Assembly: GCA_030595125.1 (NCBI GenBank) | Contig: JAUVDV010000008.1 | Span: 1 to 64,000, forward strand | Length of the DNA stretch: 64,000 nt | Source of the DNA: Deltaproteobacteria bacterium | GTDB taxonomy: Bacteria > Myxococcota_A > Polyangia > JAAYKL01 | Reading direction: 5' to 3' | Part shown: piece after piece, positions 31,207-62,132 of the stretch | Layout: the number at the start of each line of letters is the position of its first letter | Position numbering within the stretch: the first letter of the stretch is position 1 | Position numbers and translations under genes: made by a program | Notes under the pieces: model-generated | Told to the model about the DNA's origin: nothing | Databases searched by the model: none | What the model saw: the letters and a program-made list of their open reading frames with translations, nothing else

Positions 31207-32190
31207 TTAGATTAGCTGCGCGCCGGAAGTGAGCTTGCAACGGATTATGTCTGTTATTCCAGACAATTGTGAAAGAGCTTCAACGATAGATAATTCATCG
31301 CGTGGCGAACATAATATCTTGGGTTGAGGTCCCGCGTCGCAGGTGAACCAGGCCTGATATCCTTTCGCCCGGAGCTCACGAACCAGGTGCAGAGCCTCCA
31401 CCGTTACCCCGTTCCAGAACAAGATCGCCGGCCGGGCGGCGAGGGCAGCCCCGTGCATGGCCAGGGCCGATCTCTCGGTAATCTCCCCGAGTTTTTCGAG
31501 ATTTCGGTCATTAACAGCCGTGATCGCCTCTCCGAGGTCCACCCTCGTCGATTCGATCCACCCGGCGTAGTAAGGCGAGGTTTTCCTGGTGTGCTCCATG
31601 GCTTCAGTGGAGCCGATCTTTTTGGGACCGGGATCGGTGACTCCCGCGATCAGTCTCAGATCCCAGTCTCCCGGGTCCGCGATGGATCGGGCCGTGCTGT
31701 CGAGGCCGTCTTGTCGTTCTCCTTTTTCCCATACGACGATCCCGCCGGGGATGGATCGCGCGGCGGAACCGGATCCCCTGCGAGCCAGGGCGCTCATACG
31801 CGACTCGTCCAGGGACAGATCGTACGCCTCGGCGCCGGCAACCGCGAGGGCGGCGAACCCCGATGCTGACGATGCGAGCCCGGCCGCCGTGGGGAAATTG
31901 TTCTCCGTTCGAACCCGGGCGTAAATGCCGGCTCCAGCCATTTCCCGAACCAGATCCAGAAATCCGGATACTCTCTTTGAAAAGGACGGATCGGCGATCT
32001 TGCCGTCCATGAAAATCTCATCGGCCCCAAGAGAGGGATCCGTCTGAACCTTCGTCATTGTTTCGAGGGGCGCGAGGGTCAGTGAAAGGCTTCCGGCTGC
32101 CGGCAGGTTCAGAGCGACATCCCGTTTTCCAAAGTACTTGACGAGGGCCACGTTGGCAGGCGCCCGCGCGGTAGCGATCTTCTCGTTCAT
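31207..32190 (-). CDS. mvaD: diphosphomevalonate decarboxylase
   Basis: About 327 residues of a GHMP-superfamily enzyme. Diagnostic motifs are 'ANVALVKYFGKRD' at the N-terminus, 'NNFPTAAGLASSASGFAALA' (nucleotide-binding region), 'RRGSGSAARSIPGG' and 'FTCDAGPQPKIL' (catalytic Asp). It converts mevalonate diphosphate to isopentenyl diphosphate with ATP. The ATG at 32190 overlaps the stop of the isomerase gene by 4 nt, and GGGGAG abuts it. It is the last gene of the mevalonate operon. Mevalonate kinase and phosphomevalonate kinase are not in the window. Confidence 0.92.
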   Translation of the reverse strand: MNEKIATARAPANVALVKYFGKRDVALNLPAAGSLSLTLAPLETMTKVQTDPSLGADEIFMDGKIADPSFSKRVSGFLDLVREMAGAGIYARVRTENNFPTAAGLASSASGFAALAVAGAEAYDLSLDESRMSALARRGSGSAARSIPGGIVVWEKGERQDGLDSTARSIADPGDWDLRLIAGVTDPGPKKIGSTEAMEHTRKTSPYYAGWIESTRVDLGEAITAVNDRNLEKLGEITERSALAMHGAALAARPAILFWNGVTVEALHLVRELRAKGYQAWFTCDAGPQPKILCSPRDELSIVEALSQLSGITDIIRCKLTSGAQLI

Positions 32191-33251
32191 CTCCCCTGCC
32201 AGCCGGTTTCGATCCAGCGGGAGAGATCGGGTCCCAGAACCCGTGGAACAGAGGAGAGAGCAGCAAGATCGGCGGCGCCGCAACCGACCATTGTAACCTT
32301 CAGGCCGAAGATCAGATCGTCGAGATACTCTCGCACTAATTTAACGCCGCCCTTCTCGCGGGCCTGGATAAGAGGCGCGGCCACGCCGGTGAGCCCGGCG
32401 CCCATGGCGACAGCCCGGGCCATATCGAGCCCGCTGCGGATACCGCCGGAGGAGATGACAGTGAAGCCCTGATCCGCCATCCACGCGGTGGAGACTGCGG
32501 TGGGAATTCCCCAATCCCACATGATCTTTCCGATCCTCTCCGCGGCGCCCTCGGATCTGAGCGCTTCGACGCCGACCCAGGATGTTCCGCCGGCGCCCGC
32601 CACCTCCACGACCCTGACCCCAGCTTTTTTCAGGTTCTCTCCGTCCCTCCACGAGAGGCCGCAACCCGTCTCCTTGACAAATACCGTCAGGTCATCCCCC
32701 GCCGCCTGTACGAGCGCGGCAATCGCGTCGATGACGCCCGTGAAGTCTGTGTCACCCCCCGGCTGGATCAACTCCATCATCGGGTTGAGGTGAACGCCAA
32801 TGCCGTCGGCGCCGATTTTTTTGAGGGCCTCCAGCACGGGTTCCGGGCCGGTTCGTGCGATCTCGGTGGCGCCGATGTTCCCCATCACCAGGGCGTCAGG
32901 AGCTACATCACGCACCTGGAAATCGGTCGCGCGCGCCGAATCGCTCAACATGGGACGCATGCTTCCGAGGCAAAATCCAATTTCCAGCTCTTGCGCCATG
33001 GCGGCCAGCTCTTTGTTGATGGCAACGGACTCCGAGCTACCACCGGTCATCGCGCTTATCCACAGGGGTGCCCCAAGAGGTTTACCCGCGATGCTCGTGC
33101 TTGTGTCCACGTCTTGCATCGCGAGATCCGGCAAGGCCCTCGGGAGAAGCTCCATCTGCTCGAACAAGGTGGTCTTGTTTTTAAATGCAACTTCGTTTGT
33201 GGCGCAGAGGGAAAGGTGATCAGCTTTTCTTTTCTCGCTGGTCGACGGCAT
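32187..33251 (-). CDS. fni: type 2 isopentenyl-diphosphate delta-isomerase (FMN-dependent)
   Basis: About 354 residues, starting MPSTSEKRKADHLSLC, the usual 'RK.DHL' opening of Fni/IDI-2. Other hallmarks are 'APLWISAMTGGS', 'MGNIGATEIA', 'HLNPMMELIQPGGD', 'VKETGCGLS' and 'ISSGGIRSGLDMARAVAMGA' (FMN phosphate site). It interconverts IPP and DMAPP using reduced FMN. The ATG lies one base after the DUF35 gene stop, with GGAGGG inside the end of that gene, so translation is coupled. Confidence 0.94.
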   Translation of the reverse strand: MPSTSEKRKADHLSLCATNEVAFKNKTTLFEQMELLPRALPDLAMQDVDTSTSIAGKPLGAPLWISAMTGGSSESVAINKELAAMAQELEIGFCLGSMRPMLSDSARATDFQVRDVAPDALVMGNIGATEIARTGPEPVLEALKKIGADGIGVHLNPMMELIQPGGDTDFTGVIDAIAALVQAAGDDLTVFVKETGCGLSWRDGENLKKAGVRVVEVAGAGGTSWVGVEALRSEGAAERIGKIMWDWGIPTAVSTAWMADQGFTVISSGGIRSGLDMARAVAMGAGLTGVAAPLIQAREKGGVKLVREYLDDLIFGLKVTMVGCGAADLAALSSVPRVLGPDLSRWIETGWQGR

Positions 33252-33252
33252 T

Positions 33253-33651
33253 TCAGCCCTCCAGTTCGGGTGTGAACTTGTAGGCGTAGATAATGGGACC
33301 GTCATCCCCATGGGCGATAATTCGGCGCGTGACCATGGTGACCTTGTCACCCACCGAGGCGTCCTTCTGATCCACGTCCGTGAGCATTGCGCAAATAATG
33401 GGCCCCTCTTCGAGTTCGACCAGCGCAGCGAAGTAGGGGACCTGCGACCCGAACCCGCGAGGCGCTTCGAATACCCTGGTAACAGTGAAAATGGTTCCGC
33501 GCCCGCTCAACCGGTGATCTTTGAGTTCGGTGGAGCCGCATTGTGTGCAGCGAATCCGCTCGGGAAACGAGATCTTTTTGCAAGATGTGCACTGGCTCCC
33601 GACGAGCCTGAGGTTCGCTGCTTGCTGTCTCCACGAGCGGGCAAAATGCAT
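33253..33651 (-). CDS. DUF35 zinc-ribbon/OB-fold protein, scaffold of thiolase-HMGCS complex
   Basis: This 132-residue protein has a rubredoxin-like zinc ribbon with 'CTSCKKISFPERIRCTQCG' (Cys 21, 24, 36, 39), followed by an OB fold ('GRGTIFTVTRVFEAP', 'GPIICAML'). In methanogenic archaea the DUF35 protein bridges acetoacetyl-CoA thiolase and HMG-CoA synthase and shares their CoA site. The gene order here (HMGCS, thiolase-like, DUF35) mirrors that complex. GGGAGG lies about 7 nt upstream of the ATG, directly after a dispersed palindromic repeat. Confidence 0.88.
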   Translation of the reverse strand: MHFARSWRQQAANLRLVGSQCTSCKKISFPERIRCTQCGSTELKDHRLSGRGTIFTVTRVFEAPRGFGSQVPYFAALVELEEGPIICAMLTDVDQKDASVGDKVTMVTRRIIAHGDDGPIIYAYKFTPELEG

Positions 33652-33667
33652 GAACGTACCTCCCTAA

Positions 33668-33723
33668 AAGCTGGCCTCCATCACCTTCCCCTTCCCCTCG
33701 CAGGGGAAGGCCGGGATGGGGTT
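33668..33723 (-). repeat. dispersed palindromic repeat, copy A (inside the mevalonate operon)
   Basis: It holds the core inverted repeat with 9-bp arms CCTTCCCCT/AGGGGAAGG around GCG, preceded (minus strand) by AACCCCATCCCGG and followed by a GGCCAGCTTTTAGGG end. It fills the 73-bp gap between the thiolase-like gene and the DUF35 gene and runs straight into the DUF35 ribosome binding site. Confidence 0.8.
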
Positions 33724-33724
33724 C

Positions 33725-34867
33725 TTATCCCAACACGTGCGCGACCGCCGTCGCGCCGAAGCTTCCGAGGCACTGCACGAGAGCCCGGTCAGCGCCGTCG
33801 ATCTGGCTTTTTCCGGCGTCACCTCTCAGCTGGAGCGTCGCTTCCACTACCTGGTAGAGGCCGTTGGCGCCGGGTGCGTTTCCCCTGGCCTTGAGCCCTC
33901 CGAATGTCCAGAGGGGCGCAGGGCCGTCGAATCGGAAATGGCCGTCCCTGGCCAGAAGCAAGGCCTCTCCGCGCTTTGCGAGGCCCACCGCCTCGATGGA
34001 AAGCGCTGCGATGAACGAACTGGAATCGTGAAGATCCAGGAACGAGAGATCGCCGAGGCTCAACTCGGCGTCGCGAAGAGCCAGCGTCGCGCATTGAGCC
34101 GCAGCAGGGAGCGACAGAGAGGCAATTGGTTCCGAGATTCCCGTGGGCACCGACACGGATGACGATCCGAGGATGTTGACCAATGACGACGATCTGCCGG
34201 ATCCCTTTCGGATCAGAACCGCCGCGCCGCCGTCGCAGTTGGGCGCCAGATCACAAACTGTGAGCGGATCGGCCACCACCGGTGAGTGGATGTATTGATC
34301 GAATGAGAGCTCCCACGGCAGGAAGGCGAACGGGTTTTTTGCCCCGTGCAGGTGGGCCGTGGAAGCAAGATGATAGAACAGGTTTCTGTCGATCCCGTAC
34401 TCGGCCTGATACCGCTGCATCCCGAGACCGGAGGCGACGGCCGGCCCAAATCCGAATCCGGCTTCGCGCGTGGCATCCAACCCGTTTGCGCGGACGCCTT
34501 CCAGCTCATCAGGCAGAGCGTCGCTCGTTTTTTCGGCGCCCACGACCAGCACAGCCTCGTGCATCCCCGCCCCCACCAGCGCGGAAGCCAACCTCAACGC
34601 TGCGCCGCCCGAAGCTTCGTCACTGGAAACCGAGTGGGCCTCCACCTTTCCCAGGCCCATGCGGGAAGCCGTGAAAGTGCCCAGATTCTGCTGATCTCCA
34701 AGGGCGCCGCCCAGGGCGTTGCTCACTATCACCGCAGACGGAGAAACACTGCCCCCATCATCGAGGGCAGCTCCGGCGGCCTCAACCGCGAGATCCACAA
34801 GGCCCCGCGTCCAGCGCTCTTTTGCGCAGGTTCTTCCAATGCCGACTATTTCGATCCGGTCTCCCAT
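33725..34867 (-). CDS. thiolase-fold protein lacking the nucleophilic Cys and GHP His
   Basis: This 380-residue protein has the SCP2-type thiolase fold found next to HMG-CoA synthase in archaea ('IEIVGIGRTCAKERW', 'VLVVGAEKTSD', 'FLDLHDSSSF', 'FGGLKARGNAPGANG', 'GSFGATAVAHVL'). The nucleophile position of 'ACASGGAAL' reads 'SSDEASGGAAL', giving Glu84 for Cys. The catalytic His motif GHPxGATG reads 'GNAPGANG', giving Asn330 for His. His280-Asp281 and Cys366 are kept. The DNA reads cleanly with no frameshift. It probably cannot make acetoacetyl-CoA by the usual mechanism and may serve as a structural partner of DUF35/HMGCS or catalyse something else. Confidence 0.85.
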   Translation of the reverse strand: MGDRIEIVGIGRTCAKERWTRGLVDLAVEAAGAALDDGGSVSPSAVIVSNALGGALGDQQNLGTFTASRMGLGKVEAHSVSSDEASGGAALRLASALVGAGMHEAVLVVGAEKTSDALPDELEGVRANGLDATREAGFGFGPAVASGLGMQRYQAEYGIDRNLFYHLASTAHLHGAKNPFAFLPWELSFDQYIHSPVVADPLTVCDLAPNCDGGAAVLIRKGSGRSSSLVNILGSSSVSVPTGISEPIASLSLPAAAQCATLALRDAELSLGDLSFLDLHDSSSFIAALSIEAVGLAKRGEALLLARDGHFRFDGPAPLWTFGGLKARGNAPGANGLYQVVEATLQLRGDAGKSQIDGADRALVQCLGSFGATAVAHVLG

Positions 34868-34918: not shown

Positions 34919-35965
34919 CTAGTTGGGCCGCAGCTTGCCGCGGTATCTTGCGTACATTGCGTAATCCACTGATTTTGTGCGCCGCAGGTAGCGCTCAATG
35001 GGAACGCCCCTCTTGCGAGCCTCAATAATATTGTCGGTGACCTCGTAGGAGAAAGCATCAGACCCGGCCCCGGATCCGTACGATGCGAGCAGGATCCGAT
35101 CTCCGGGAGAAGCAATATCCAGCGCCTTCGCAAAGCCGAGCATCGCGGCGCCGGAATAAGTGTTACCCACCATGTTGGTCAGGACGAAGGGTTCTACACG
35201 ATCGCGGGCGAACCCGAGCTCCGCCGCCACACGCAGTGGAAACTGAGAGTTGGGCTGGTGGAAAACTGCGAATGTGAAGTCTCCGGGACCCGCGCCGATA
35301 TCTTCCATTAACTGCGTTACCGATGAGCGAATGTGGTGAAAGTACGCGGGTTCACCGGTGAACCGCTGGCCATGGTTCGGATATTCTTGCCCCTCCCTGC
35401 GGAAGAAGTCAGTTGTGTTGGTGACGTATGACGTGGACGCCTGCAATACCGCCACGCTCTCCTGTCCCGGTCCGAGGATGAAGGCAGCGCCCCCGGCGCC
35501 GGTGGTGTATTCGAGCACATCCCCTGGCTTCGCCTGTGCCGTATCGGCGCCGCCGCACATGGCGTATCGGGCCATTTCACTCCCCACCATGCCGATGGCC
35601 GCCTGCATGGCTTCTGTCCCCGGTTTGCAGGCGAACTCCCAGTCCGCCGCGTTCGCGTGGGGCAGCGCGCCGATGGCGTCGGCCACGATGGTGGAGGTGG
35701 GCTTTACCGCGTAGGGTTTCGATTCCGTTCCGAACCACACGGCTCGCAGCTCATTCGGATCAATGGAGGCCATGTCCATGGCGTTGCGGGCAGCCTGGAT
35801 GGCGATTGTGGTGGTGTCCTCGTCCGGTCCGGGAACCGCCTTGAAGGATTGGCCCTCCTTCCTGCCGGATCCCCTCCACACTCGATCTACCTCGGCAGCG
35901 TCAATTCTGTATCGGGGAATATATCCGCCGTAACCGATCACGCCGACAGCCCTCGTGGGCTTCAT
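34919..35965 (-). CDS. hydroxymethylglutaryl-CoA synthase, archaeal type
   Basis: This 348-residue thiolase-superfamily enzyme is of the short archaeal HMGCS class. It starts 'VGVIGYGGYIPRYRI'. The catalytic residues are present: E81 in 'FGTESKPYAVKPT', C113 in 'WEFACKPGTEAMQ' and H236 in 'VFHQPNSQFP'. It condenses acetyl-CoA with acetoacetyl-CoA to HMG-CoA, the first committed step of the mevalonate route. GGGAGG is well placed. It is the promoter-proximal gene of the five-gene operon. HMG-CoA reductase is not in the window. Confidence 0.93.
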   Translation of the reverse strand: MKPTRAVGVIGYGGYIPRYRIDAAEVDRVWRGSGRKEGQSFKAVPGPDEDTTTIAIQAARNAMDMASIDPNELRAVWFGTESKPYAVKPTSTIVADAIGALPHANAADWEFACKPGTEAMQAAIGMVGSEMARYAMCGGADTAQAKPGDVLEYTTGAGGAAFILGPGQESVAVLQASTSYVTNTTDFFRREGQEYPNHGQRFTGEPAYFHHIRSSVTQLMEDIGAGPGDFTFAVFHQPNSQFPLRVAAELGFARDRVEPFVLTNMVGNTYSGAAMLGFAKALDIASPGDRILLASYGSGAGSDAFSYEVTDNIIEARKRGVPIERYLRRTKSVDYAMYARYRGKLRPN

Positions 35966-36231
35966 GAGATACCTCCCACCGAAACACCGGGAAAAAGAAA
36001 AGTGTCTTCACAGTAACTAAACAACGTTAACCAAATACAAATATAATCCATAAATGGCAAGGCGTCCACCATTTCTTTCGCCAGGTTTCAAGCAATGATG
36101 AATACAATTCAGTTTTTTCTGAAACCAAACCAGTTGACGCGGTTTCCAACATCTTCCCCTTCCCCTTGCAGGGGAAGGCCGGGATGGGGTTAACGAAAAA
36201 CAATGGTTTTCGATTCCCGATGGACACTTTT
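35966..36231. other. intergenic region between the mevalonate operon and a small acidic gene
   Basis: No gene is supported. The minus-strand frames of 77 and 92 codons overlap a dispersed repeat and lack starts. It contains palindromic repeat copy B at 36150-36193. The promoter of the mevalonate operon should lie here on the minus strand, but I cannot pick convincing boxes. Confidence 0.5.
36150..36193 (-). repeat. dispersed palindromic repeat, copy B
   Basis: It has the same AACCCCATCCCGG plus CCTTCCCCT/AGGGGAAGG core as copies A, C and D, here with TGCA in the loop. The distal GGCCGGCTTTTA end is not conserved in this copy. Confidence 0.75.
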
Positions 36232-44644: not shown

Positions 44645-45021
44645 CCGACCTCCAAGTTGTTCCATCCTGAGATTGCAGAATCATTTTACAAGGTTTTGAT
44701 GCTTCGCGCACCCGCGAGTGGCAAATTGAGAGTCACGACTCATCGGATCGACCTCGCGAGGGGCAAATCGAGAGTCGCTACCGCACGATATGGCCTTCGC
44801 GAGTGGCAAATCGAGAGTCGTTACTCCCCGATATGGCCTTCGCGAGGGGCAAATCGAGAGTCGCTACTCACCGGATCGGCCCTGGCGAGGCGGAAATGGA
44901 GACCCTTGGGTCTGTCGATTGATGGTGTTTAACCCCATCCCGGCCTTCCCCTGCGAGGGGAAGGGCCCTGCTCCGCTCGCCAGCGAGCTACGGCAGGGTG
45001 GCACGATGATGGCGGCCGGCT
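44645..45021. other. intergenic region with tandem and palindromic repeats
   Basis: There is no gene in these 377 bases. The region holds about five tandem 43-bp units (44712-44900) followed directly by an interrupted copy of the dispersed palindromic repeat (44930-45026). The plus-strand frame through it is a by-product of the repeat. Confidence 0.65.
44712..44900. repeat. 43-bp tandem repeat, about five units
   Basis: GCGAG landmarks fall at 44714, 44756, 44799, 44842 and 44885 (period 42-43). Each unit contains GGCAAATCGAGAGTCG and a GATATGGCCTT- or GGATCGGCC-type end; the last copy is degenerate. No spacer diversity of CRISPR type is present. Confidence 0.88.
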
Positions 45022-61966: not shown

Positions 61967-62132
61967 CCGGCGAGTCTTCCGTTTTTTCTTTTTTTTCGCA
62001 ACCGAAGAAGAAAACGACCGATTAAACGGGTGTGAACCCGGCTGTTCAATTTCCGGGGGCAACCCCATCCCGGCCTTCCCCTGCGAGGGGAAGGGGAAAA
62101 TGATAGCGGCCGGCTTTTAAAGGAGGTGAACG
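61967..62132. promoter_or_regulatory. divergent region between protease and secretin genes
   Basis: This 166-bp stretch contains palindromic repeat copy D at 62061-62120 and a poly-Lys-encoding A/T-rich run near 61980-62010. Promoters for both genes should lie here, but no clear boxes are seen. Confidence 0.4.
62061..62120 (+). repeat. dispersed palindromic repeat, copy D
   Basis: AACCCCATCCCGG, the CCTTCCCCT/AGGGGAAGG core, then GGGGAAAATGATAGCGG and CCGGCTTTTAA, which runs directly into AAAGGAGG, the ribosome binding site of the secretin gene. Confidence 0.82.

Follow-up and report, generated by a model that had tools for sequence, protein, structure and literature searches.

Results

Gene organization of the mevalonate locus

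The window analyzed here, a 64,000-nucleotide stretch of a Deltaproteobacteria contig, carries a mevalonate gene cluster on its minus strand. At its head stands an archaeal-type HMG-CoA synthase (HMGCS; 34919..35965, minus strand) that scores 470 bits against TIGR00748 (cut-off 353) and whose best PDB match is 6ESQ_I (1e-109). The thiolase-like gene (33725..34867, minus strand) lies between it and the gene for a DUF35 bridge protein (33253..33651, minus strand), a zinc ribbon plus OB fold matched above cut-off by PF01796 and PF12172 and best matched in the PDB by 6ESQ_E (4e-27). Two genes with coupled or overlapping starts follow: the ATG of type 2 isopentenyl-diphosphate isomerase (IDI-2; 32187..33251, minus strand; TIGR02151, 330 bits against a cut-off of 281) is one base past the DUF35 stop, and the start of diphosphomevalonate decarboxylase (MvaD; 31207..32190, minus strand; TIGR01240, 281 bits against a cut-off of 171) overlaps the IDI-2 stop (ATGA). 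The HMGCS catalytic residues E81, C113 and H236 and the four DUF35 cysteines are intact, as had been read originally, and in its catalytic HMGCS, its Cys4 DUF35 protein and the adjacency of the three genes the locus matches the archaeal thiolase-DUF35-HMGCS complex. All ten family genomes examined keep the order HMGCS-thiolase-DUF35, and in most of them MvaD and IDI-2 lie alongside; the HMG-CoA reductase gene is found on a separate contig of the window's genome. The window also contains four copies of a near-palindromic repeat, CCTTCCCCTCGCAGGGGAAGG, where none is expected (33690-33710, 36158-36178, 44944-44964 and 62074-62094); one copy falls between the thiolase-like gene and DUF35 and one upstream of HMGCS.

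The open reading frame of the thiolase-like gene is intact and encodes 380 residues, as first described, but it runs on the minus strand, from 34867 to 33725. The protein matches PF22691 (7e-28) and PF00108 (1e-6), both above cut-off; NF004720 is its top NCBIfam match, yet at 241 bits against a cut-off of 420. The AlphaFold (AF2) model has a pLDDT of 96.6 with 108 sequences and 70.5 with 11 sequences, and the predicted fold superposes on the 6ESQ/6ET9 thiolase with a TM-score of 0.95. A fold search ranks the Pyrococcus furiosus thiolase 7YVY first and also returns the Trypanosoma brucei SLP (TbSLP), which has been solved with malonyl-CoA and acetoacetyl-CoA.

Active-site residues of the thiolase-like protein

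In fold and sequence family the protein belongs with the catalytic archaeal acetoacetyl-CoA thiolases, and it has neither their Cys nucleophile nor their GHPxG His. When the protein is aligned with 7YVY (E 3e-65) and 6ESQ, both solved thiolases, Glu84 (codon GAA, 34616..34618, minus strand; motif DEASGG) falls on the Cys of ACASG and Asn330 (codon AAC, 33878..33880, minus strand) on the GHP His, which bears out both replacements named in the original prediction. That prediction also had the fold motifs preserved, and this stands only in part: His280 of HDxF (codon CAC, 34028..34030, minus strand) is retained, but residues 280-283 are HDSS, without the HDxF Phe, and the C-terminal N-x-GG loop has lost its Asn. 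This Phe and Asn are nearly invariant among Cys-bearing relatives. No conserved Cys that would substitute near the active site was found in the 11-member family alignment.

In ten orthologues, 48-93% identical and drawn from further genomes of this family, the nucleophile position is Glu (nine) or Asp (one), so that Glu is found in 10/11 members, Asp in 1/11 and Cys in 0/11. Those relatives that carry a name are metagenome assemblies of Deltaproteobacteria/Myxococcota; JAUVAN010000059, at 93%, is one example. Conservation of a Glu/Asn pair, raised at the outset, is not seen: position 330 varies across the family (N, L, H, I), and only the replacement of the nucleophile by Glu/Asp is fixed. His280 is invariant in all 11 members. 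Because the GAA codon differs from either Cys codon at all three bases, a single sequencing error does not explain Glu84, and this difference, together with the ten orthologues, contradicts the idea that a corrected sequence might restore Cys84.

Comparison with known thiolase-fold systems

The thiolase/DUF35/HMGCS complex of Methanothermococcus thermolithotrophicus (6ESQ, 6ET9) consists of the same three components that are encoded side by side here. In 6ESQ, DUF35 holds thiolase and HMGCS together and CoA is bound at the interface of all three proteins (PMC6392133, PMC12329534). This structure is the best PDB match for both the HMGCS and the DUF35 protein of the window and shares the fold of its thiolase-like protein; however, the M. 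thermolithotrophicus thiolase is catalytic (Cys85), whereas the window protein has Glu at this position and has lost other active-site positions too. The closest solved sequence and top fold match, P. furiosus PFC_04095 (7YVY), retains ACASGG and GHPVGATG, neither of which is intact in the window protein.

The PhlABC acyltransferase (5M3K, 5MG5), a homologous complex that likewise has three parts, contains one catalytic half that is without its residues and apparently structural (PMC6392133): the HMGCS-like PhlA has no catalytic Cys/Glu, and its presence is thought necessary only for a functional complex or its assembly (PMC6392133). There the HMGCS-like half is dead and the thiolase-like half works, the reverse of the window locus, whose intact HMGCS E81/C113/H236 and missing thiolase Cys place it outside the PhlABC type. 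The steroid aldolases Ltp2 and Sal (6OK1, 9MYR) share with the window protein a thiolase fold, a DUF35 partner and the lack of a Cys nucleophile, and catalyze retro-aldol cleavage (PMC12329534). They use the Tyr of YDxF, whereas the window protein has HDSS, with a family-invariant His in place of that Tyr, and is set in a mevalonate operon; on the missing motif we reject an aldolase of the Ltp2/Sal type. Thiolase-like folds without the usual nucleophile are also found in Sulfolobus tokodaii ST0096 (4YZO), which has Ser-Gly-Ser aligned at the ACAS motif, and in TbSLP (5AB4-7). Unlike the window gene, the ST0096 homologue in Sulfolobaceae (L071) is unlinked to HMGCS and TbSLP has no associated DUF35 (PMC12329534).

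Loss of the nucleophile across archaeal operons

In a survey anchored on HMGCS rather than on thiolase, in which classes were assigned by sequence alignment and some sampled genomes are incomplete, 83 of 100 Thermoproteota HMGCS loci have a thiolase nearby and 17 have none. The nearby thiolase has Cys at 40/83 loci and lacks it at 43/83, with Asp (29), Glu (6), Gly (5), Gln (2) or Leu (1) instead; Sulfolobaceae carry the Asp form (L170). Of the 50 Thermoplasmatota loci, Cys is present at 20 and absent at 30, and every copy examined in the Caldarchaeum-containing class, 28 of them HMGCS-confirmed, is without it; one Caldarchaeum locus (L061) shares the gene order of the window and has Gly in place of the nucleophile and Asn in place of the GHP His. 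ACAS-type motifs are retained in Patescibacteria copies beside HMGCS and in one Thorarchaeota copy. Pooled, the HMGCS-linked copies comprise 89 Cys-bearing and 115 Cys-less proteins. The nucleophile position is acidic (Asp/Glu) in 69/115 of the latter, and other Cys-less lineages have Gly, Ala, Thr, Ser, Asn, Gln or Leu in the same operon with HMGCS intact. We found no report of Cys-less operon thiolases in the open-access literature searched, although prior mention elsewhere is possible.

Several variant arrangements were seen in the survey. The 17 thiolase-free Thermoproteota loci are L225, L232, L234, L235, L237-L244, L246, L247, L250, L256 and L272; about ten of them retain DUF35, and the subunit may have been lost or moved. 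In one Thermoproteota group (L248, L251, L261, L264-L266, L268, L269, L271 and L273-L277) thiolase and DUF35 lie upstream of HMGCS and the nucleophile position is Asp. At L283 and L291-L293 a divergent long HMGCS frame of about 500-530 aa adjoins a Cys-bearing thiolase (ACASSSS), and no DUF35 was found within the stretch. A further Cys-less group, unlinked to HMGCS, has Pro at the nucleophile (L021 of G014, ENGPASG; L169 of the Thorarchaeota genome G410, ETGPSSG).

Loss of the Cys is a repeated outcome in archaeal-type HMGCS complexes, having occurred in several archaeal lineages; the original prediction treated it as a single oddity, and it proves to be both family-wide and recurrent. At minimum, the Cys state changes 7 times on the full thiolase tree (164 rows), 6 times when the count is confined to operon rows, and 9 times on the HMGCS tree, and the nucleophile position switches between acidic and other residues 11 times. 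One ancient loss, which would place all Cys-less copies in a single clade, is rejected on a 51-row tree (delta lnL 247, p-AU 0.0004).

Within the phylum (379 genomes), the archaeal HMGCS cut-off is passed only by the three sampled members of this family, and in the HMGCS tree the bacterial family falls among Thermoproteota sequences on a long stem (0.82, SH-aLRT 91). Both observations make a Thermoproteota-like archaeon the probable source of the operon. In the thiolase tree the family groups with mostly Cys-less Thermoproteota (39 rows, SH-aLRT 95), so the family may have inherited the Cys loss from its donor, a placement made tentative by the long stem of 1.38. With stems of this length in both trees, the donor is tentatively pinned no closer than Thermoproteota-like.

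Relaxation at the active site and constraint on the protein

Other catalytic residues erode along with the nucleophile. In the HMGCS-linked copies the GHP His is present in 86/89 Cys-bearing and 53/115 Cys-less proteins, and the HDxF His in 89/89 and 92/115, respectively. When positions at least 90% conserved in Cys-bearing copies are compared with Cys-less copies, many that lie within or close to catalytic motifs (51, 83, 84, 129, 142, 280, 283, 330, 335 and 366) are relaxed in the latter, while K113, H172, D212-G213, G323-G324, K326 and G329 are fixed in both. The partner proteins at Cys-less loci keep their residues: the HMGCS catalytic E/C/H are intact in 115/115 and the DUF35 cysteines in 110-112/112. 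At an HMGCS identity of 0.50-0.55, thiolase identity is 0.335 for Cys-less and 0.465 for Cys-bearing copies, the Cys-less ones being more diverged. Among congeners, dN/dS is 0.09-0.14 for the thiolase-like gene, 0.05 for HMGCS and 0.14-0.19 for DUF35. By these sequence-based measures, the thiolase-like protein is relaxed at its active site and still under purifying selection as a protein.

Canonical thiolases in the same genomes

A catalytic thiolase elsewhere in the genome had been foreseen, and two canonical ones are found, on contigs C3 and C27, both with Cys/NEAF/GHP/Cys intact; that on C3 adjoins a 3-hydroxyacyl-CoA dehydrogenase-like ORF. A single protein search located a canonical-type thiolase in 13/14 family genomes. 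A second Cys-bearing archaeal-type thiolase in the window's genome was considered and rejected, the only matches being a short partial one and a Cys-less fusion on contig C105 (L050, 179-2452). This 757-aa protein, a thiolase-like domain fused to two DUF35 zinc-ribbon/OB units, is without the Cys motif (RHYVGGGTGI), and its YDPF resembles the YDxF of the Ltp2/Sal steroid aldolases.

We also searched 36 archaeal genomes, nearly all chosen for a Cys-less operon copy, counting matches with E <=1e-50 as canonical. A canonical thiolase with all catalytic residues (Cys/His/Cys) intact is present in 29/36. Of the remaining seven, six either carry an operon copy with the Cys or have further archaeal-type thiolase matches apart from the operon copy; the seventh, metagenome assembly G419, gave no thiolase match beyond the operon copy, possibly through incompleteness of the assembly. 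The five genomes of the Caldarchaeum class that were searched gave no canonical AtoB-type thiolase; four of them have other archaeal-type thiolase matches.

Discussion

The evidence favors the pseudo-thiolase beside intact HMGCS and DUF35 that was first proposed: the protein is probably retained as a structural or CoA-site subunit of the HMGCS-DUF35 complex, with acetoacetyl-CoA coming from a separate thiolase. The archaeal-type HMGCS would work as a thiolase-DUF35-HMGCS assembly whose CoA site is built from all three proteins, and the need for this site would keep the thiolase-fold subunit in place after it has ceased to make acetoacetyl-CoA, the supply of which would pass to a separate canonical thiolase. 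That the same Cys has been lost several times across archaea suggests that the protein now serves HMGCS as a structural partner. PhlABC, with its dead HMGCS-like half, provides the mirror image, and it is by this likeness that we infer a structural role for a dead thiolase half that would still complete the HMGCS complex. Assembly of the complex, the CoA-site or scaffold role and the absence of thiolase activity are all inferred.

Four observations sit less easily with a pseudo-thiolase. Replacement is biased toward acidic residues, with Glu/Asp fixed in 11/11 family members, and pure loss does not obviously predict either the bias or the family-fixed Glu. His280 is retained family-wide. Moreover, about one-sixth of the surveyed Thermoproteota HMGCS loci have no thiolase nearby, and HMGCS there may need none, unless the gene lies elsewhere. 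Finally, the search of five Caldarchaeum-class genomes gave no AtoB-type candidate for the separate canonical thiolase, although four of them have other archaeal-type matches.

The unexplained excess of acidic replacements is the main reason for keeping a reading in which the chemistry has changed, which we consider unlikely. Here the Glu/Asp carboxylate, together with His280, would be the general base in a reaction of a CoA thioester inside the HMGCS complex, for example aldol/retro-aldol chemistry, hydrolysis or malonyl-CoA decarboxylation. The 11 acidic/other switches on the tree and the retention of His280 are consistent with such a role, as are the precedents of Ltp2 and Sal, Cys-less DUF35-partnered retro-aldol enzymes (PMC12329534), and the appearance among the fold matches of TbSLP with its malonyl- and acetoacetyl-CoA complexes. 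However, other lineages place Gly, Ala, Thr, Ser, Asn, Gln or Leu at this position in the same operon beside an intact HMGCS, the GHP His and HDxF Phe have been lost alongside the Cys, the window protein has His where the aldolase YDxF has Tyr, and a mevalonate operon offers no obvious substrate. It is somewhat less probable still that the Glu/Asp marks an acid-base thiolase-fold subunit, repeatedly acquired in archaeal HMGCS complexes, that performs or gates a new CoA-thioester step such as enolisation or the hand-over of acetoacetyl-CoA to HMGCS.

We regard as improbable a relay in which the dead site would bind acetoacetyl-CoA from a separate thiolase and swing it across the shared CoA site into HMGCS, a channeling without catalysis. 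The invariance of K113, H172, K326 and the glycine motifs across Cys-bearing and Cys-less copies would fit such binding, as would the shared CoA site of 6ESQ (PMC6392133; PMC12329534) and the crystallization of TbSLP with acetoacetyl-CoA, but positions 129, 142, 283, 330 and 366 are not maintained and no evidence points to docking with the canonical thiolase. That the protein has remained a thiolase, with another nucleophile or rearranged residues, is very unlikely: its fold is complete and some Cys-less relatives keep the GHP and HD His, but no conserved Cys near the site replaces the lost one, Glu/Asp is unable to form an acyl-thioester, the intermediate of the standard mechanism, and intact thiolases are present elsewhere in the genome. 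Lastly, although the assembly is fragmented (203 contigs), we reject a sequencing or assembly error and a decaying pseudogene as next to impossible, given the same residue class in 11 genomes, a codon three bases from Cys and a dN/dS of about 0.1.

Whether archaeal HMGCS needs the thiolase body to complete its CoA site becomes directly testable, since nature provides complexes both with and without the Cys. Annotation probably labels the gene as encoding the enzyme that opens the mevalonate (isoprenoid) pathway. If the nucleophile is missing from over half of the sampled Thermoproteota and Thermoplasmatota operon copies, and from one whole bacterial family, then annotation of acetoacetyl-CoA synthesis would point to the wrong gene, and a separate canonical thiolase would likely be the right one.
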